Positions 117 to 37,551 of a stretch of 37,551 bases of DNA are shown here, piece after piece. Below the pieces are notes generated by a model. That model did not search any database and had not been told where the DNA came from. It saw only the letters and a program-made list of their open reading frames with translations. The position numbers and the translations under genes were made by a program. Source of the stretch: Petrotoga sp. 9PW.55.5.1 (GTDB lineage Bacteria; Thermotogota; Thermotogae; Petrotogales; Petrotogaceae); contig NZ_AUPM01000032.1 of assembly GCF_003265365.1 (NCBI RefSeq), forward strand, positions 1 to 37,551. Reading direction: 5' to 3'. Position 1 is the stretch's first letter. Every line of letters starts with the position of its first letter.

Positions 117-196
117 TGTTTTCTCCTTTGTTTGTAGGATTGAAGTTATCTATTTAAATTATACCATAATAGTGATGGTTTTGGTTTTGAAGTAAA

Positions 197-476
197 ATTC
201 CCCTTCCTCGAAGAGGTGGATGCAGCGTTTTATGCTGCAGACGGGGTAGTCATTCTTTAATTTGCTTTTAGCAAATTATATGTACCACACCCTGTCAGAC
301 TTTCAGTCTGACACCCCTCTCAAGAGGGGAATTAAAGCCAATTCCGCTTTTGTGAAGGTAAATCAAAAGCAACTACCCCGTCTGTGACCACACCCCGGCT
401 GCGACGAAGAACGTCGCATCCACCCCTCTCAAGAGGGGAATTCTATTACATTTACCCTTCAAAAAGGGGAATTTAA
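197..476. repeat. Mosaic of nested palindromic repeats (REP/MITE-like)
   Basis: About 280 bp without a gene, filled with inverted repeats. Stems: TGCAGC/GCTGCA (221-226/234-239), AATTTGC/GCAAATT (259-265/271-277), TGTCAGAC/GTCTGACA (293-300/306-313), CCCCTCT/AGAGGGG (314-320/323-329 and again 423-429/432-438), and TGCGACG/CGTCGCA (400-406/412-418). A 13-bp pair CAGACGGGGTAGT/ACTACCCCGTCTG (238-250/372-384) encloses the middle part. The 22 bases at 455-476 recur, inverted, at 18331-18352. The content is GC-rich compared with the flanks. No transposase or long ORF is present. Degraded Rpn-type fragments lie on both sides. Confidence 0.75.
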
Positions 477-2134: not shown

Positions 2135-3459
2135 AGAAAAAAGTTTTGATAATGGGCGCGGCAGGAAGAGATTTTCATAATTTCAACGTCTATTATCGTA
2201 ATAATACTGATTATCAAGTTGTTTGTTTCACGGCTACTCAGATTCCGGATATTGAAGGTAGAGTATACCCTGAAGAATTAGCAGGTGATTTGTATCCTGG
2301 AGGTATCCCGATAGAACCTGAAGAAAAGCTCCTTCAATTAATTAGAGAAAAAGAGGTCGAAGAAGTAGTCCTATCCTATAGTGATTTACCTTTTCAATAC
2401 GTTATGGAAAAAGCATCTTTAGTTTTAGCTTCTGGAGCAGATTTTAAATTACTTGGACCAAATAACTCAATGGTTCAATCCACAAAACCTCTTATTTCGA
2501 TTTGTGCTGTTAGAACAGGTTCTGGTAAAAGTCAGACATCTAGAAGAGTTCTAGATATTTTAAGAGCTAAGGGATTAAAAGTTATTTCTATTAGGCATCC
2601 TATGCCATACGGTGAGTTAGCCAAACAAAAAGTACAACGTTTCGCCACATATGAAGATCTGGAAAAACACCAATGTACTATCGAAGAAAGGGAAGAATAC
2701 GAACCCCACATAGATAGAAATTCTGTAATATACGCGGGTGTAGATTATGAAGAAATATTAAGAGAAGCAGAAAAAGAAGATCCGGATGTCATTTTATGGG
2801 ATGGTGGAAACAATGACTTTTCTTTTTATAAACCGGATTTATCAATAGTTGTAGCTGATCCACATCGTCCTGGACATGAGGTATCCTATTTCCCTGGAAT
2901 GACAAATCTTTTAATGGCAGATGTTATAGTAATAAACAAAGAAGAAACCGCCTCTTTAGAAAATATCGAAAGAGTTAGAAAAAGTATTGAAAAATGGAAT
3001 CCTAACGCTATCGTAGTTGATGCTGCGTCTCCTTTGTTTGTTGAAAACCCATCAATAATTAGAGGGAAAAAATGTCTTGTTATAGAAGATGGACCAACTT
3101 TGACACATGGAGAAATGACCTATGGCGCCGGATTTATAGCAGCAAAAAAATATGGGGCTTCAGAAATTCTAGATCCACGCCCTTTTGCAGTTGGTTCTAT
3201 AATAGATACCTACAAAAAATATAACCATCTTGATAAGATTCTTCCTGCAATGGGGTATGGTAAAAAACAGATACAAGAGCTCGAAGAAACCATTAATAAA
3301 TCAGATTCAGAGGTTGTTATTATTGGTACCCCAATTGATTTAACCAGAGTTATGAATATCAAAAAAACTGCAGTTAGAGTTACTTATGAATTACAAGAAA
3401 TTGGAAAACCAAATCTTGAAGATATTTTAGATGAATTTATTTCAAAAAATGTTCACTAA
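2128..3459 (+). CDS. P-loop protein of the cyclic 2,3-diphosphoglycerate synthetase-like family (COG2403 type)
   Basis: A 443-residue cytoplasmic protein. The N-terminal part (1-120) reads like a dinucleotide-binding/Rossmann-type segment (VLIMGAAGRDFHNFNVYYR). It is followed by a P-loop AVRTGSGKSQTSR at about 127-139, a conserved 'RHPMPYGELAKQ' segment, 'DGGNND' at 225-230 and 'VINKEE' at about 268-273, which resembles a G4-type NKxD motif. This is the family that databases call predicted GTPase or cyclic 2,3-diphosphoglycerate synthase, after the archaeal enzyme that cyclises 2,3-diphosphoglycerate. Whether the bacterial members do that is unknown to me. Overlap with arcA by 7 bases and a shared ribosome binding site (AGGAGGGA at about 2116-2123) argue for a role linked to arginine or carbamoyl-phosphate metabolism. 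Family call fairly sure; substrate not. Confidence 0.8.
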   Translation: MLKKKVLIMGAAGRDFHNFNVYYRNNTDYQVVCFTATQIPDIEGRVYPEELAGDLYPGGIPIEPEEKLLQLIREKEVEEVVLSYSDLPFQYVMEKASLVLASGADFKLLGPNNSMVQSTKPLISICAVRTGSGKSQTSRRVLDILRAKGLKVISIRHPMPYGELAKQKVQRFATYEDLEKHQCTIEEREEYEPHIDRNSVIYAGVDYEEILREAEKEDPDVILWDGGNNDFSFYKPDLSIVVADPHRPGHEVSYFPGMTNLLMADVIVINKEETASLENIERVRKSIEKWNPNAIVVDAASPLFVENPSIIRGKKCLVIEDGPTLTHGEMTYGAGFIAAKKYGASEILDPRPFAVGSIIDTYKKYNHLDKILPAMGYGKKQIQELEETINKSDSEVVIIGTPIDLTRVMNIKKTAVRVTYELQEIGKPNLEDILDEFISKNVH

Positions 3460-8147: not shown

Positions 8148-9404
8148 ATGCGAGTTATTGGAATGATATTGGCTGGAGGTCAAGGTACGAGACTTGGAGT
8201 ATTAACTAATAATATTGCTAAACCAGCAGTGCCCTTTGGCGGAAAATACCGTATGATAGATTTTACATTAAGCAATTGTGTGAATTCCAATATAAGTACT
8301 GTAGGTGTTGTTACCCAATATATGCCCCATAGATTGGTTGAACATTTAGGAATAGGTAAACCATGGGATTTAGATATAAAAGGCGGAGGTCTGCACGTAT
8401 TGCCACCTTATCTTAGTAGATCCGGAACATCTTGGTATCTAGGTACCGCAGATGCAGTATATCAAAATATAGAATTTATAGATAATTATAACCCTGATTT
8501 TTTATTACTATTATCTGGTGATCACATATATAAAATGGATTATAACGATATTATTGATTATCATATTGAAAAGAATGCTGACTGCACGATAGCATGTCTT
8601 GAAGTTCCTGTAAATGAAGCTCATAGGTTTGGAATAATGGTAACAGATCCTTTCAACAAAATAAGTGAATTTCAGGAAAAACCTAAGGTGCCAAAAGGTA
8701 CTCTTGCATCTTTGGGAATTTACGTGTTCAAATGGGACTTTCTAAAAAAAGCTTTATTAAATGATGCCAAAGACACTACTTCGGAACATGATTTTGGAAA
8801 AAATATTATTCCAAATGGTCTAGAAAAAAACGCTAAATTTTATGCATATAATTTTGAAGGTTATTGGAGAGATGTTGGTACATTAGAATCTTATTTGGAA
8901 TGTAATTTAGAAATTTTATCACCGTTTCCTCCGCTGAATCTTCATGATGAACAGTGGAGAATCTATACTCAATCAGAAGAACTCCCCCCAGCTTTTATAT
9001 CAAAAGACGCAGAAGTTGTTAAAAGCTTTGTTAGCGAAGGTTCAGAAATATATGGGTCGGTTGAAAACTCAGTAATTTTTCAAGGATCTCATGTTTCTGA
9101 AGGATCTATAATCAAAGATTCTGTCATCATGAATAACGTCTTTATAGGCAAAAATGTATATATCGAAAAAAGTGTAATAGCAGAAAACACTGTTATAGGA
9201 AATAATGTTAAGATAGGTGTTGGTAATTTTTCTGAATCAAAGATAGATAAAAAAGTATATACTTCAGACATAACTGTTATAGGTTTTAACGTAATAATAA
9301 AAGACAACATGATTATTGGAAAAAACTGTGCAATCGATAATGAAGTTGATCTTACTAAATCAAATATAAATGAAATAAAAAGTGGAGAAGGAATAATTAA
9401 ATAA
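8148..9404 (+). CDS. glgC: Glucose-1-phosphate adenylyltransferase (ADP-glucose pyrophosphorylase), catalytic subunit
   Basis: Makes ADP-glucose from ATP and glucose-1-phosphate, the committed step of glycogen synthesis. The 418-residue product has the pyrophosphorylase loop GGQGTR at 10-15, KPAVPFGGKYRMIDF, GTADAVYQN at 99-107, SGDHIYKMDY at 123-132 with the catalytic Asp, and FQEKP at 175-179 with the substrate-binding Lys. From about residue 280 on it forms a left-handed beta-helix of hexapeptide repeats, as expected. The ATG follows AGGAGGGTG. Pairing with glgD immediately upstream indicates a heteromeric enzyme. Glycogen synthase and branching enzyme genes are not in the window. Confidence 0.97.
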   Translation: MRVIGMILAGGQGTRLGVLTNNIAKPAVPFGGKYRMIDFTLSNCVNSNISTVGVVTQYMPHRLVEHLGIGKPWDLDIKGGGLHVLPPYLSRSGTSWYLGTADAVYQNIEFIDNYNPDFLLLLSGDHIYKMDYNDIIDYHIEKNADCTIACLEVPVNEAHRFGIMVTDPFNKISEFQEKPKVPKGTLASLGIYVFKWDFLKKALLNDAKDTTSEHDFGKNIIPNGLEKNAKFYAYNFEGYWRDVGTLESYLECNLEILSPFPPLNLHDEQWRIYTQSEELPPAFISKDAEVVKSFVSEGSEIYGSVENSVIFQGSHVSEGSIIKDSVIMNNVFIGKNVYIEKSVIAENTVIGNNVKIGVGNFSESKIDKKVYTSDITVIGFNVIIKDNMIIGKNCAIDNEVDLTKSNINEIKSGEGIIK

Positions 9405-13998: not shown

Positions 13999-15488
13999 TG
14001 TTGCTAGAAATGAAAGAGATTACAAAGTCTTTTCCTGGAGTTTTGGCATTGAATAAAGTGAATTTTTTCTTAGAAAAAAAAGAAATACACGCCCTATTGG
14101 GAGAAAATGGTGCAGGTAAAAGTACGTTAATAAAAATCCTAGGAGGAATTCATCAGGTTGATAGTGGGGAAATTATATTAAATGGAGAAAAAGTAATATT
14201 GAATAATCCTGGGGAAACAAAAAAGAAAGGTATTTCTATAATCCATCAAGAGTTAATGCTAGCAGAAAATTTATCTATCGCTGAAAATATTTTTCTAGGA
14301 AAAGAAAAAGGTAATTCCTTCAATATTAATTTCAAAGAAATGGTCAAAGAATCTAAAATTTATCTTCAAAAGCTGGGATTTGAAATTGATCCGAGAATAA
14401 AAGTTTCTGAATTGAATATTTCAGAAAAACAATTAATAGAAATTGCTAAAGCTCTTGCTTCAGACGCACAAATAATAGTGATGGATGAACCAACAGCTAC
14501 TATTTCTGAACATGAAACAGAAATATTATTTAAAGTTATGAGAGAACTCAAAGAAAAAGGAATTTCTATTATTTTCATAACTCATAAACTAGAAGAAGTA
14601 TATCAAATTGCGGATAGAGTCACTGTATTAAGAGATGGAAAATTAGTAGGAAGCGGGAATTTAGAAGAGTTTACGCAAGATGATTTGATAAAAATGATGG
14701 TAGGAAGAGAAATAAAAGACATGTTCCCAAAATTTAACAAAGTGAAAGAGGATATTATTTTTAAAGTCGAAGAATTTGAAATCCCGGGAAAAGTTTCTTC
14801 AGTTTCATTTGAGGTAAAAAAAGGCGAAATTTTTGGAATAACAGGTTTAGTTGGCTGTGGAAAATCTGAATTAGCCTTGGGACTTTTCGGTGTTTATAAT
14901 TCTACTTTCAAAAGTTTCATTATAGATAACGAAAAAGTTTCAGAACTAAATTCTCCTTCCCAAGCTTTAAAAAACGGTATAATCTTAGTACCTGAAGATA
15001 GGAAAACTCAAGGCTTAGTTCAACTACTAAATGTGGTGGAAAATATAACACTTGCCAATTCTGGAAAGTTCGCTCCTTTTATTAATATTAATTGGAAAGC
15101 AGCAGCAGAAGAAACTCAAAAACAAATTAAAAATTATAATATAAAAACTACTTCAGAAAGACAAAGCGTAGAAACCCTTTCAGGAGGAAATCAACAAAAG
15201 GTTGTTTTAGCAAAATTCCTATTGAGACAGCCAAAAGTAGCCATTTTGGTAGAACCTACTAGAGGCATTGATGTGGGGGCAAAAATAGAAGTTTATAAAT
15301 TAATAAACAATCTTGCAAATGAAGGAATTGGAATAATATTAATCACTTCAGAAATTCCAGAAGTTGTAGGATTATGTGATGAAGTGATGGTTATGCACAG
15401 GGGAAGAATGACAGATTTATTAAATAGAGAAGAAATAAACCCAGAAAACATATTAAAAGCAGCTATGGGGCTGGTTCAAAATGCTTAA
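13998..15488 (+). CDS. rbsA: Ribose ABC transporter, double ATPase subunit
   Basis: Start set at ATG 13998 (GGGGGTGA 7 bases upstream, and TGATG coupling with rbsD); an ATG at 13950 lies inside rbsD and lacks support. 496 residues with two ABC domains. Domain 1: Walker A GENGAGKST (35-43), a degenerate signature NISEKQ, Walker B IIVMDEPT (Asp163, Glu164). Domain 2: GLVGCGKS (283-290), signature LSGGNQQ (394-400), and the segment AILVEPTRGIDVG, where the Walker B aspartate is Val418 while Glu419 is kept. In most RbsA proteins the second Walker A lacks the lysine (GxxGAGRTE) and Walker B is LDEPTRG; here the lysine is present and the Asp is lost. Ends overlapping rbsC by 8 bases. Confidence 0.95.
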   Translation: MLLEMKEITKSFPGVLALNKVNFFLEKKEIHALLGENGAGKSTLIKILGGIHQVDSGEIILNGEKVILNNPGETKKKGISIIHQELMLAENLSIAENIFLGKEKGNSFNINFKEMVKESKIYLQKLGFEIDPRIKVSELNISEKQLIEIAKALASDAQIIVMDEPTATISEHETEILFKVMRELKEKGISIIFITHKLEEVYQIADRVTVLRDGKLVGSGNLEEFTQDDLIKMMVGREIKDMFPKFNKVKEDIIFKVEEFEIPGKVSSVSFEVKKGEIFGITGLVGCGKSELALGLFGVYNSTFKSFIIDNEKVSELNSPSQALKNGIILVPEDRKTQGLVQLLNVVENITLANSGKFAPFININWKAAAEETQKQIKNYNIKTTSERQSVETLSGGNQQKVVLAKFLLRQPKVAILVEPTRGIDVGAKIEVYKLINNLANEGIGIILITSEIPEVVGLCDEVMVMHRGRMTDLLNREEINPENILKAAMGLVQNA

Positions 15489-32023: not shown

Positions 32024-33304
32024 GTGAAGAGGTTATTGATTCATATCATTGATATAGTGCTAATTTTCTCGATAAATTCATTAGTTTTACAACTACCAAT
32101 ATTTATATCTTTAATTTCTTCTATTATCATATATTTGGGGCTGTATTCTTTCAGATTATACGATCTAGAACCAATGGGGAATTATACAGAGTCTGTTATA
32201 AAAACGGCAGTGGGGACACTAGTAAGTTATATCGTAATACTCATTATTTATTTCTTTCTTACAAACTACTTCAATAGATTGTTCTTCGTCACAAACTTGT
32301 TATCAACAATTCTTATAATTCCAGTTTTACACAAGATTGAGTACGTAATATATAAAAAACACATCCCCGTTAAGAATTACCTTGTTATAGGAAGAAAGGC
32401 AGAGATCGGTCATATCATGGATGAGATTTCTCATAAATCCTTAAACAAACTAAAATTCACTCAGTATATTAACCCTAGCCCAACAACTTTGGAAAAATTA
32501 ATAAAACAAAGTACAAGCAAATATTCAATTCAACCAATAGACGCCATTGTCATAACAGATCCCCAGTTAGAAAAAAGAGTTAAACCACAAATAGAAAATT
32601 TCAAAGAGGAAGGACTTAAAATCGAATACTTACCTAACATGGTAGAAAAATACCTAAATCGTATACCAATAGAAGTAGCTGAGAAATTTAAGGAGTATTA
32701 TGAAGTAATATTCCAAGAAACTCAACCTGATCCTGTACAAAAAATTCTTGATAAACTATTAGGATCTTTACTTTTATTGATTTTTTCTCCTTTTATGCTT
32801 ATAATAAGTCTAGCTATTTTGATTGAAGATGGAAGACCAATAATTTACAAACAAAAAAGAATGGGAAAGAACGAAAAAATATTCATAATGAACAAATTCA
32901 GATCATTAAAAGAAACTGAAATAAACGAAAATAATCCTAACGAAGATATAGAAAAAAGGGTTTTGAAAACTGGAAAAATAACCAGAAAACTAAGACTTGA
33001 CGAACTCCCCCAATTTTGGAATATAATAAAAGGAGATATGTCAATTGTAGGACCAAGACCAGAGATGCTTAAGTTCCATAATATTATGTCAAGCCAAATC
33101 CCTTTTTATAACTTCAGACTCAAAATAAATCCGGGAATAACAGGCTGGGCTCAAATATATTACAAACATACATCTACTCTTGAAGATTATATCATTAAAA
33201 CAGAATATGACTTATACTACATAAAAAACAGAAACACTTTTTTAGACCTTCAAATAATGCTTAAAACACTCGAAACTATCTTAGGAATGAGGGGGGCAAG
33301 GTGA
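32024..33304 (+). CDS. Undecaprenyl-phosphate sugar-1-phosphate transferase (WbaP/WcaJ-like)
   Basis: Starts the lipid-linked repeat unit by moving sugar-1-phosphate from a nucleotide sugar to undecaprenyl phosphate. 426 residues: four N-terminal membrane helices (1-110), a nucleotide-binding-like middle part ('KNYLVIGRKAEIGHIMDEI'), then the catalytic Bac_transf domain from about 240. Its signatures are 'LDKLLGSLLLLIFSPFMLIISLAI', 'PIIYKQKRMGKNEKIFIMNKFRSL', 'RKLRLDELPQFWNIIKGDMSIVGPRPE' and 'NPGITGWAQIYYKHT'. Start GTG, with GGAGG at 32007-32011. First gene of the plus-strand operon; its TGA overlaps the next start (GTGA). Confidence 0.95.
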   Translation: MKRLLIHIIDIVLIFSINSLVLQLPIFISLISSIIIYLGLYSFRLYDLEPMGNYTESVIKTAVGTLVSYIVILIIYFFLTNYFNRLFFVTNLLSTILIIPVLHKIEYVIYKKHIPVKNYLVIGRKAEIGHIMDEISHKSLNKLKFTQYINPSPTTLEKLIKQSTSKYSIQPIDAIVITDPQLEKRVKPQIENFKEEGLKIEYLPNMVEKYLNRIPIEVAEKFKEYYEVIFQETQPDPVQKILDKLLGSLLLLIFSPFMLIISLAILIEDGRPIIYKQKRMGKNEKIFIMNKFRSLKETEINENNPNEDIEKRVLKTGKITRKLRLDELPQFWNIIKGDMSIVGPRPEMLKFHNIMSSQIPFYNFRLKINPGITGWAQIYYKHTSTLEDYIIKTEYDLYYIKNRNTFLDLQIMLKTLETILGMRGAR

Positions 33305-34317
33305 GTTCCTCAATAGCTGTGTCAGTAATTATTCCTACGTATAACTCTGAAAAATATGTGAAAAAATGTCTCAATTCTGTAATTATACAAACTTTAAATA
33401 ATATTGAAATAATAATAATAGACAATATTTCAATTGATAATACTGTCAGAGTAGCAAAAGATATACTTTCGAATAGCAAAAAAAATTTTGAAATAATAAA
33501 AAACCCAAAATTAGGGGTTAGTTTTTCTAGGAATATTGGAATAGAAGCCTCAAAAGGTGAATATATATATTTTCTGGATTCAGATGATTATCTTTTAGAA
33601 AAAGAAGCTTTGGAAAACGCATACAAACTTGCTAAAGTTAACGATTTAGATATAGTACATTTTGGATTCAATAGAGTAGATGAAGAAGGTAAAATAAAAG
33701 TTCCATATAATAGATTTTATAAATATATAACTTCAATTGAAAGTGGTAATCAGGTACTCGAAAAATATTTAAAAGGTAAAGTTTGGCTATGCACTGGTAA
33801 TTGCATATATAAAATGAATACCATAAAAAATAATTCTTTATTCTACACTGAAAATTGTAGAGTAGGGGAAGATCAGGAGTTTATCATAAAAACGCTTGTA
33901 AATTCTAAAAGAATTTTATCAGTAAACAAAGTTTATATAAATTATCTTTCAAGAAAAGAATCTTTATCAAAAAACTCTTTAATACTTCTTGAAGCAGTTG
34001 AGACCTTTGAGAGAATTAAAAGTTATTTGAAATCTCGGGATCAAAACTACGAAAAATTAATTTCGATTATTGATACTCATAAGATCCCTTATTTAATCGT
34101 CAGGGCTATTATTAAAGCTTCACTTATTGAAGGTGATTCTTCCATTGTAGAAAAATCATTAAATGAAAATAATAAGTATAAGACTTATTTAAAAAAAACA
34201 AAGTTCGGTTTTATTCCTTATTATTTTGGAACTTATATGGCCGCTAAGAGTTTTCTATTTTTTCCAAAATTTTTTTATAAAGCTATTCATTTGTTTTCGA
34301 AAATTTTAAGCTATTGA
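33301..34317 (+). CDS. Family 2 glycosyltransferase
   Basis: 338 residues. GT-A fold: VSVIIPTYNSEKYVKKCLNS at the start, 'IEIIIIDNISIDNTVRV', 'SFSRNIGIEASKGEYIYFLDSDDYLL' with the DxD metal site, and 'VGEDQEFIIKTL' further on, which supplies the catalytic acidic residue. A C-terminal hydrophobic patch (FGFIPYYFGTYMAAKSFLFFPKFF) may bring it to the membrane. GTG start overlapping the previous stop by four bases, with GAGGGGGG upstream. Adds one sugar to the lipid-linked unit; donor unknown. Confidence 0.93.
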   Translation: MSSSIAVSVIIPTYNSEKYVKKCLNSVIIQTLNNIEIIIIDNISIDNTVRVAKDILSNSKKNFEIIKNPKLGVSFSRNIGIEASKGEYIYFLDSDDYLLEKEALENAYKLAKVNDLDIVHFGFNRVDEEGKIKVPYNRFYKYITSIESGNQVLEKYLKGKVWLCTGNCIYKMNTIKNNSLFYTENCRVGEDQEFIIKTLVNSKRILSVNKVYINYLSRKESLSKNSLILLEAVETFERIKSYLKSRDQNYEKLISIIDTHKIPYLIVRAIIKASLIEGDSSIVEKSLNENNKYKTYLKKTKFGFIPYYFGTYMAAKSFLFFPKFFYKAIHLFSKILSY

Positions 34318-34377
34318 TTAATAACAAATAATATTAGAATTAATTGAATAATATTTTTATAACTTGCGGGTGAAAAT

Positions 34378-35418
34378 ATGATTTTGGCTTTTTTATATTC
34401 TCTACAACATATTGTTTTTTTGTTAATCCACGACAAGAGATATAAACATTTTTTCATATTTTTTTCTTTAATTGTTTTTATATTAATTTATATTTTAAAA
34501 CCGGACACGTACGATATACCTGCCTACGTTGCTTCGGTTGATTACCCGTATTTTGAACCTTTGTTTTCACTTTTAATCATAATATTGAGACCTTTTCTAA
34601 GCAACAGAAATGTTATCCTAGTAATCCAATTTTTAATAGGGGTATTAACATTTTTTGTTATAAATATTTATACAAAAGATTATAAAAACAGAGTTGATAA
34701 AAAAGTATCTTATATTCTAGCTTTTTTTTCCGTTGCTTTTACACTAGGTGTGAATAATGGTTTAAGACAATACATGGCAAGTTTAATAGTCTTCATATCT
34801 ATTTGGTTTTTTTTAAATAATAAAATTATTTTATCTTTATTAGTTTTTTGTTTTGCACCTATGATCCATTTAAGTTCTTCAATGTTTTATTTTCTAGTTA
34901 TAACTATAATATATGTTTCTAAAAAGCGGTTTTTTTCAAAAATAAGAAGAACATTATCTATTTTAAGCTTCAATCTTCATATAAATCTTTTAAAAACTTT
35001 AATTTTTATTTCCAGTATTATCTTAATAATTCTACTACCTGTAATAGTAAGTTATACTCCGTATGCTAGTTACCTTAATCGAAATATTGTAGAAGGTAGA
35101 GTAGATTTTACCATAAAATATTTTCCTATTCTATTAAGTTTTGTTATTAGTGAATATTTTTTTGGAAAGATTAAGAAAGAAGATTATATTTTTTCACAAC
35201 TTAGAATCATACGTACGTTTTTTATAGTTTTTATGTTTTTCTTTATTTTCTTTAATTCTTTGAACGAATTAGCTTCTCGAGTTCTAAGTTTTTATTTCAG
35301 TTTAGAAATGATTGTTTTGTCTTTATCTTATGTAAAAGGATATAAAACCGGGGCTATAGTAATCAATTTGAGTTATGCTTTTGCTATCAACGCTATTAAT
35401 GTTATCGGAAGGATATGA
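34378..35418 (+). CDS. EpsG-like polysaccharide polymerase
   Basis: 346 residues, about ten membrane helices. After the second helix comes 'KPDTYDIPAYVASVDYPYFEPLFSLL', the Asp/Tyr-rich first loop followed by E-P-x-F that marks EpsG/Wzy-type polymerases, and 'GVNNGLRQYMASLIVFIS' at the third to fourth helices, where family members carry a conserved Arg-Gln. Its role would be to link repeat units on the outer face of the membrane. ATG with GCGGGTGA upstream; a 60-bp AT-rich gap separates it from the GT2 gene. Sequence conservation in this family is low, so the call rests on topology and context. Confidence 0.75.
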   Translation: MILAFLYSLQHIVFLLIHDKRYKHFFIFFSLIVFILIYILKPDTYDIPAYVASVDYPYFEPLFSLLIIILRPFLSNRNVILVIQFLIGVLTFFVINIYTKDYKNRVDKKVSYILAFFSVAFTLGVNNGLRQYMASLIVFISIWFFLNNKIILSLLVFCFAPMIHLSSSMFYFLVITIIYVSKKRFFSKIRRTLSILSFNLHINLLKTLIFISSIILIILLPVIVSYTPYASYLNRNIVEGRVDFTIKYFPILLSFVISEYFFGKIKKEDYIFSQLRIIRTFFIVFMFFFIFFNSLNELASRVLSFYFSLEMIVLSLSYVKGYKTGAIVINLSYAFAINAINVIGRI

Positions 35419-35459
35419 ATTTATACTATTCCTAAAATTATGAGAAAAAAGGAGTAATA

Positions 35460-36734
35460 ATGAACAATAAAAAAGTATTATTGATTTCTGGTATAGTCGG
35501 ACCATTAAAATCTAGTAATAACTCTTTCACGAATACCGTAAAGGGATATTTAAACAATGGATTCAAAGTTTATCATTTCGCTTTCTATAATAAAAGAAAC
35601 ACAAAATATGAACTATTTGAATTGCTGGAAAATAAAAATTATAAGTTTTTTGGTATACCATATTTTGTATCTTACTTTTTGAACGGTAAAAGGAGAAATA
35701 AGAAAAGAGGAAAAAATGATTATATTATAGAGAGTATTCATCCAAACGAAGTAATTAAACCAAATTCTGAAATTTCTAAAACTCAATATTTTTTTAATTT
35801 ATTTTATAGTATATTTGAAAGTATTAGATTATTATTATTTTCTCCTTTTATCCGTCCAGACATTATTTATGCATATGAGATATTTGGAGTAAATCCTGGT
35901 TATTTCATAGCCAAAATACTTAATAAACCACTAATTAAAAGATTTCAAGGTACTTTTATTGATAAAGATAATATAAATTCAAAAAAAACACTATTTCACA
36001 AAAAGGCATATGAGAAAGATTGTACTTTAAATATTATGACCAATGATGGAACCAAAGGAGATGAAGTATTAAGAAAATTAGGTTTTAGTGAAGAAAAAAT
36101 ACTTTTCTTGATTAATGGTTTGGATGAAAGAATCAGAAAAAGTATTCGCGAAAAGGATTTGGAAAAATTTAAATTAAAATTGGATTTAGGTGATAAAGAC
36201 TTAGTTCTTGGTATATTTAATAGATTTTATCCGTTCAAAAGGATTGACCGTGCTGTTTATCTCTTGAAGGAATTAAAGGAAGAGTTAGATAATCCATATT
36301 TGCTTATTGGGGGAATGGGGGGACCAACAGAATCAACTATCAGAAAAATGGTGAAAAATTTTCACCTTGAAGATAACGTGAAATTTCTCGGAGAAATACA
36401 ATATGATGATATGTTTTTATATTATAAGGTTTGTGATGTGATATTACTTTTAAATGATTATGCCAACACAGGGAACCAACTTTTAGAAGCTGCGTATTTA
36501 GGCAAGCAAACTATTGCAGTTGATGATGAAAATAACTCAAAAATTTTTAAATTTGAAAATATTCATTATGTAAATCCATACAATTTTTTAGAAGAATCAG
36601 TAAAACTTTCTATGGAGATTTATAAAAATAAAAATAATATTGAAGAAAGGATAAATAATAAAATTCTGTCGTGGGAACAAAGAATGGATATAGAAATCAA
36701 GAAAGTAGAAGAAATACTAGGAAAGAATTGTTGA
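35460..36734 (+). CDS. Family 4 glycosyltransferase
   Basis: 424 residues with the GT-B layout. N-terminal 'KKVLLISGIVGPLKSSNNSFTNTVKGYLNNGFKVYHF', middle 'PDIIYAYEIFGVNPGYFIAKILNKPLIKRFQGTF', and the C-terminal nucleotide-sugar domain with 'LVLGIFNRFYPFKRIDRAVYLLKEL', 'NPYLLIGGMGGPTES', 'NVKFLGEIQYDDMFLYYKVCDVILLLNDYANTGNQLLEAAYLGKQTIAVDD'. The last holds an N-x-L-L-E-A site in place of the usual EGFGLPxLEA, a mild departure. ATG with GGAGTAAT upstream. Donor and acceptor unknown. Confidence 0.87.
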   Translation: MNNKKVLLISGIVGPLKSSNNSFTNTVKGYLNNGFKVYHFAFYNKRNTKYELFELLENKNYKFFGIPYFVSYFLNGKRRNKKRGKNDYIIESIHPNEVIKPNSEISKTQYFFNLFYSIFESIRLLLFSPFIRPDIIYAYEIFGVNPGYFIAKILNKPLIKRFQGTFIDKDNINSKKTLFHKKAYEKDCTLNIMTNDGTKGDEVLRKLGFSEEKILFLINGLDERIRKSIREKDLEKFKLKLDLGDKDLVLGIFNRFYPFKRIDRAVYLLKELKEELDNPYLLIGGMGGPTESTIRKMVKNFHLEDNVKFLGEIQYDDMFLYYKVCDVILLLNDYANTGNQLLEAAYLGKQTIAVDDENNSKIFKFENIHYVNPYNFLEESVKLSMEIYKNKNNIEERINNKILSWEQRMDIEIKKVEEILGKNC

Positions 36735-36912: not shown

Positions 36913-37485
36913 TTGAAACTAATCAGTCTAATAGGCGCTCGTCCACAAATAATTAAAGAAGCAATTTTAAATCAAGAATTAGAAAAAGAAGGAATAGAAG
37001 AAATCCTGGTTCATTCTGGACAACATTATGACTTTAACATGTCTGATGTATTTTTCAAAGTTTTAAATATAAAAAAAGCTAATTACAATTTAGGAATAGG
37101 TTCAGGAACACATGCAGAAATGACTGGCAAAACAATGATAGAATTTGAAAAGGTAGTACTAAAAGAACGCCCTGATATTATACTAGTATATGGAGACACA
37201 AACACCACCTTAGCTGGAGCATTAGTTGGCTCAAAGTTAAAAATCCCAGTTGCACATGTAGAAGCAGGTATAAGGCAAGAACCAAAGGATATGCCAGAAG
37301 AGATAAATAGAGTACTAACAGACCATGTATCTAAGTACTTATTCTGTCCTTCTAAATTAGCTATGAATAACCTAAAAAAAGAAAACATAAAAGAAGGAGT
37401 ATATTTTACAGGAGATATAATGTATGATCTTTTTTTAAAGATGAAACCATACTTTGATGAAAGTATTATCAACAAATTAGTTTAG
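36913..37485 (+). CDS. wecB: UDP-N-acetylglucosamine 2-epimerase, N-terminal half, interrupted by an amber codon
   Basis: WecB-type epimerases convert UDP-GlcNAc to UDP-ManNAc and are about 360-380 residues. The start is set at TTG 36913 (AGGGAAGGGAG just upstream); an in-frame ATG at 36865 would add 16 unrelated residues. The 190-residue product shows KLISLIGARPQIIKEA, 'LVHSGQHYDFNMSDVFF', 'LVYGDTNTTLAGAL', 'VAHVEAGIRQEPKDMPEEINRVLTDHVS' and 'GVYFTGDIMYD'. The frame stops at TAG 37483-37485, but the same frame then continues with recognisable WecB sequence to the window edge. The 178-bp gap in front holds only AT-rich sequence, small inverted repeats and no clear promoter. Truncated protein or pseudogene. 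Confidence 0.85.
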   Translation: MKLISLIGARPQIIKEAILNQELEKEGIEEILVHSGQHYDFNMSDVFFKVLNIKKANYNLGIGSGTHAEMTGKTMIEFEKVVLKERPDIILVYGDTNTTLAGALVGSKLKIPVAHVEAGIRQEPKDMPEEINRVLTDHVSKYLFCPSKLAMNNLKKENIKEGVYFTGDIMYDLFLKMKPYFDESIINKLV

Positions 37486-37551
37486 AAGAAAATAAATATA
37501 GTAGTAACCACAATACACAGAGACTTCAACACAGATAACAAATCAAATTTA
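37486..37551 (+). pseudogene. wecB: Continuation of wecB after the amber codon, cut by the window end
   Basis: In the same frame as 36913-37485 the bases read KKINIVVTTIHRDFNTDNKS and onward with no further stop. The motif TTIHRDFNTDN matches the WecB T-x-HRxxNxDN segment that normally follows soon after the first Rossmann domain. The downstream half of the enzyme is therefore present but separated by one stop codon. Confidence 0.75.

Follow-up and report, generated by a model that had tools for sequence, protein, structure and literature searches.

An in-frame TAG in a WecB-family epimerase gene of Petrotoga sp. 9PW.55.5.1 is a probable assembly error close to the end of a contig

The reading frame of a WecB-family epimerase gene in the draft genome of Petrotoga sp. 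9PW.55.5.1 is interrupted by a TAG triplet, followed by further N's and frame disruptions towards the nearby end of the contig. We conclude, with a probability of about 0.93, that this triplet is a consensus artefact arising from two near-identical copies of the gene that were merged at the contig end. The feature is real as letters but most likely represents an assembly error, not a real biological feature, and there is no evidence of gene loss by the bacterium.

The window, that is, the whole stretch of DNA analyzed (37,551 nucleotides), comprises nearly the entire contig C32 (37,856 bases). The contig continues for just 305 bases beyond the window, the last base of which sits one base ahead of an N at 37552. 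A preliminary description, made from the sequence of the window, had reported a single in-frame amber codon splitting an otherwise normal wecB gene. The presence of the TAG and the resumption of the frame behind it are confirmed, but neither “single” nor “otherwise normal” stands, because the triplet is flanked by a one-base deficit and a one-base surplus, and additional N's and surplus bases follow.

The epimerase gene, its family and its locus

From its opening at 36913, the frame runs through the codons for 190 residues of a WecB-family protein before reaching the TAG and, in the same phase, picks up again after it (VVTTIHRDFNTDN / KKINIVVTTIHRDFNTDN). Profile searches with the part of the frame that precedes the TAG yielded matches to Pfam Epimerase_2 (1.8e-54) and to TIGR00236, the wecB model (2.9e-55); what precedes the TAG is the first, N-terminal half of a protein of the WecB/Epimerase_2 type. 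On their own, these 190 residues score 187.9 bits against TIGR00236, under the cut-off of 210.15, because they represent half a protein. The intact gene of the relative G013, which is 95% identical to that in the window, scores 303.6 bits against the same cut-off, placing it within the family. The gene is preceded by those for a glycosylphosphotransferase, two glycosyltransferases and an EpsG-family protein and is, therefore, part of a surface-polysaccharide locus (Table 1).

Table 1. Features of the epimerase gene and its surroundings in the window
Feature	Position	Strand	Remarks
Surface-polysaccharide genes: polyprenyl glycosylphosphotransferase, family-2 glycosyltransferase, EpsG-family protein, group-1 glycosyltransferase	32024..36734	+	upstream of the epimerase gene
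5' part of the WecB-family epimerase gene (TTG start)	36913..37172	+	separately readable in both copies (C32; end of C21), 97% identical
Middle of the gene, present once in the genome; apparently a merged consensus of both copies	37173..37551	+	goes on to 37678, past the window
One-base deficit	37478..37479	+	relative to all eight relatives' copies; column variable among them
Apparent amber codon	37483..37485	+	conserved Leu-Glu-Glu codons read out of phase, between deficit and surplus
One-base surplus, phase restored	37500..37501	+	A or G in relatives, AG in the contig

The gene falls in the WbpI-like branch of the WecB/non-hydrolysing UDP-GlcNAc 2-epimerase family (TIGR00236, Pfam Epimerase_2). 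Among proteins of known structure, the intact relative is closer to UDP-2,3-diacetamido-2,3-dideoxy-glucuronate 2-epimerases (8SXV, 3e-100; others ~1e-100) than to the solved WecB enzymes (4NEQ, 8e-84), which makes plain UDP-GlcNAc an unlikely substrate. Three divergent WecB-family paralogues, all above the TIGR00236 cut-off, are encoded elsewhere in the genome, on contigs C54, C61 and C41. With the wecB model, the C54 paralogue (2225-3322) reaches 504 bits and the intact G013 gene 304, and the former appears to be a better wecB candidate than the gene in the window. With these enzymes as the nearest structures and three other WecB-family genes present, the earlier proposal that the TAG stops the supply of a ManNAc-type sugar and alters the exopolysaccharide is unsupported.

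Two sets of gene ends and a single middle

A second copy of the gene is distributed over other contigs. Its first ~259 bases, 97% identical to those in the window, are the final bases of contig C21, and two 3' parts are found at the start of C54 and at the end of C39 (reverse strand), both from bases matching 37679 and both open up to stops at the expected place. The middle of the gene, 37173-37678, occurs once in the whole genome, on C32. There are, thus, two sets of ends (5' on C32 and C21; 3' on C54 and C39) but only one middle, indicating that the copies were separated at their ends and merged in between. The copies are ~97-99% identical wherever both can be read, and every defect that we detected, with the exception of an N at 37680, falls within the single middle.

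Along its tail, C32 carries the allele of one copy at some sites and that of the other elsewhere. C54 and C39 differ at four sites within their overlap with C32: at 37680 (A in C54, G in C39), C32 carries the N; at 37694 and 37787, it carries the C39 allele, and at 37731, that of C54. C32 terminates precisely where C54 and C39 begin to diverge again.

The start codon at 36913-36915 is TTG in C32 and ATG in the C21 copy as well as in the copies of relatives. The C21 copy (C21 10863-16428) is located downstream of polysaccharide flippase and pyruvyl transferase genes. On C54 (2-3322), the 3' part of the epimerase gene is followed by a glycosyltransferase gene, a full wecB and a flippase gene, and on C39 (5002-9184), by aromatic amino acid genes. 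The epimerase is, accordingly, present in at least two polysaccharide contexts.

We deduce from the contigs that the two copies were merged. Under this scenario, the assembler would have kept the 5' parts (C32, C21) and the 3' parts (C54, C39) apart while fusing reads of both copies over 37173-37678, and the merged consensus would extend as far as 37856, the point at which the copies diverge again. At positions where the copies differ, such a consensus could contain an N, both bases or neither, a surplus being the expected outcome when the two alleles are both retained in succession. Flow-based sequencing, which averages signals, would, if it was used here, yield surpluses and deficits alike.

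The TAG triplet, the indels and competing explanations

We aligned C32 with the intact G013 gene and with the copies in UBA5837, JAGPKI, G001, G002 (two), G003 and G004. Compared with all eight copies, C32 is one base short at ~37478 and one base over at ~37500, leaving some 22 bases out of phase between the two sites, and the TAG appears in this shifted phase. The bases of the triplet equal those of the relatives read in another phase, with no substitution to a stop. The preliminary description had listed among its possible explanations a local pair of compensating indels, around an L-x-LEE-x-K segment, and a sequence error. Both proved right and describe the same single event, in the merged middle at the contig end. 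One deficit followed by one surplus in a merged consensus would account for the out-of-phase stretch and hence for the TAG.

Additional irregularities are found in the 305 bases past the window, namely N's at 37552 and 37680 and extra single bases at ~37563 and ~37598. Each surplus has a recognizable form: at ~37500, relatives have TATA-TAG or TATG-TAG whereas the contig has TATAGTAG; at ~37563, TTAAAAG or TTGAAAG contrasts with TTGAAAAG; and at ~37598, AAAAG or AAAGG contrasts with AAAAGG. All four sites in question (the surpluses and the N at 37552) are columns at which relatives alternate between A and G. Such columns make up ~14% of those in the gene, so that the chance of four out of four would be ~0.0004, a rough value given that the sites were picked post hoc. 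Presumably the deficit at 37478 shares its cause with the surpluses, in keeping with the variability of the column there.

N runs were surveyed across 1.27 million bases of the assembly, made up of both ends of all contigs and a large share of the interior. With 14 short all-N contigs set aside, 43 of the 51 runs lie no farther than 400 bases from a contig end, and there is no run at a distance of 2-5 kb. Frameshift-aware alignment against about 0.8 Mb of G002 (same genus, one contig) detected frame breaks at 5 of 40 contig ends, C32 among them, compared with 6 of 200 interior pieces. Contig ends, thus, carry frame breaks in modest excess over the interior, and C32 is extreme among the ends, its 400 bases having yielded three breaks. 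A plain tblastn test for frame breaks gave 0 of 51 ends versus 4 of 546 interior pieces and also missed the known case in C32.

A dispersed repeat of ~60 bases was observed in the course of this analysis. It consists of two hairpins (CCCCTTC...GAAGGGG; GCAGC...GCTGC), occurs at window 195-251, C41:3333-3524 and C2:49269-49372 among other places, often in tandem, and was seen in 96 copies on 45 contigs. The repeat is present within 700 bases of 49 of the 130 contig ends and seems to be a main reason for assembly breaks.

The clustering of N's at contig ends, together with the frame breaks at some of the other ends, could suggest that the indels stem from read ends of low quality at the edge of the contig, independently of any second copy. 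We consider this improbable: C54 and C39 are known to differ (A/G) at the very position of the N at 37680, the tail combines alleles from these two contigs, and the surpluses are all located at A/G-variable columns, none of which would be expected under random error. Should this explanation be correct, the TAG would still be an artefact and the biological verdict would not change. It is similarly doubtful that one paralogue is a recent pseudogene, truly frameshifted four times within ~121 bases, with the other copy intact. Such a loss would be tolerable given the second copy, and broken copies exist in relatives (an in-frame TAG in a contig interior in G001, remnants in G007). However, the gene's first 565 bases are free of indels when aligned with the relatives' copies, and so is the 176-base overlap of C32 with C54 and C39; the surpluses sit at A/G-variable columns with N's alongside; and the assembly lacks a second middle. 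Furthermore, substitutions in the damaged half retain the third-position bias (6 of 11 relative to G013, 10 of 13 relative to UBA5837, and 38 of 59 relative to G002a), which, along with the open 3' parts, is not the look expected of a decaying gene. If one copy were indeed frameshifted and its epimerase inactive, one of two surface-polysaccharide loci would be impaired in this strain.

A true nonsense mutation, the option elaborated most in the preliminary description, or programmed amber read-through, which it had also mentioned, can be practically dismissed. As deposited, the TAG shares its frame with the sequence on either side; yet its bases match those of the relatives in the other phase, no substitution accounts for it, and the site belongs to the stretch over which the two paralogues were apparently merged. 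Read-through would not give an intact protein because the frame is broken again at ~37563 and ~37598. The TAG is the product of a phase shift, not of a stop-forming substitution in an unshifted frame as in a nonsense-mutation pseudogene. Returning to the merging of two copies, we infer that both physical copies of the gene are intact. Two of the checks proposed in the preliminary description, alignment with relatives beyond the window and a search for a second wecB, which recovered the second copy in parts along with the three paralogues, both point to an artefact.

Relatives' genes and collapsed repeats

Disrupted versions of the epimerase gene were encountered in two relatives. In G001, from the same genus, the gene (L052 from 9659; G001:C8:23658 onwards) contains an in-frame TAG at codon 69, which is Gln or Glu in relatives; there is no indel, the frame is otherwise open to codon 355, and the closest contig end is ~20 kb away. 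Here the TAG appears to be a genuine nonsense codon, such as the preliminary description had envisaged for the window. The complete genome of G007, from the same family, contains two remnants of the gene ~6 kb apart (L057, G007:C1, around 8347-8703 and 14239-14711), so the epimerase gene is broken there too.

The case of C32 calls for caution in the interpretation of apparent nonsense codons that lie a few hundred bases from a contig end, beside N's: a merged paralogue should be checked for first. Surface-polysaccharide genes, which are duplicated in this genome, are a place where such merging is to be expected. The observations on C32 match those for a collapsed-repeat (paralogue) consensus error at the end of a draft contig, with which C32 shares the near-identical copies, the merged middle and the mosaic tail, as well as the N's at allele differences and the contig break at the point where the copies diverge.
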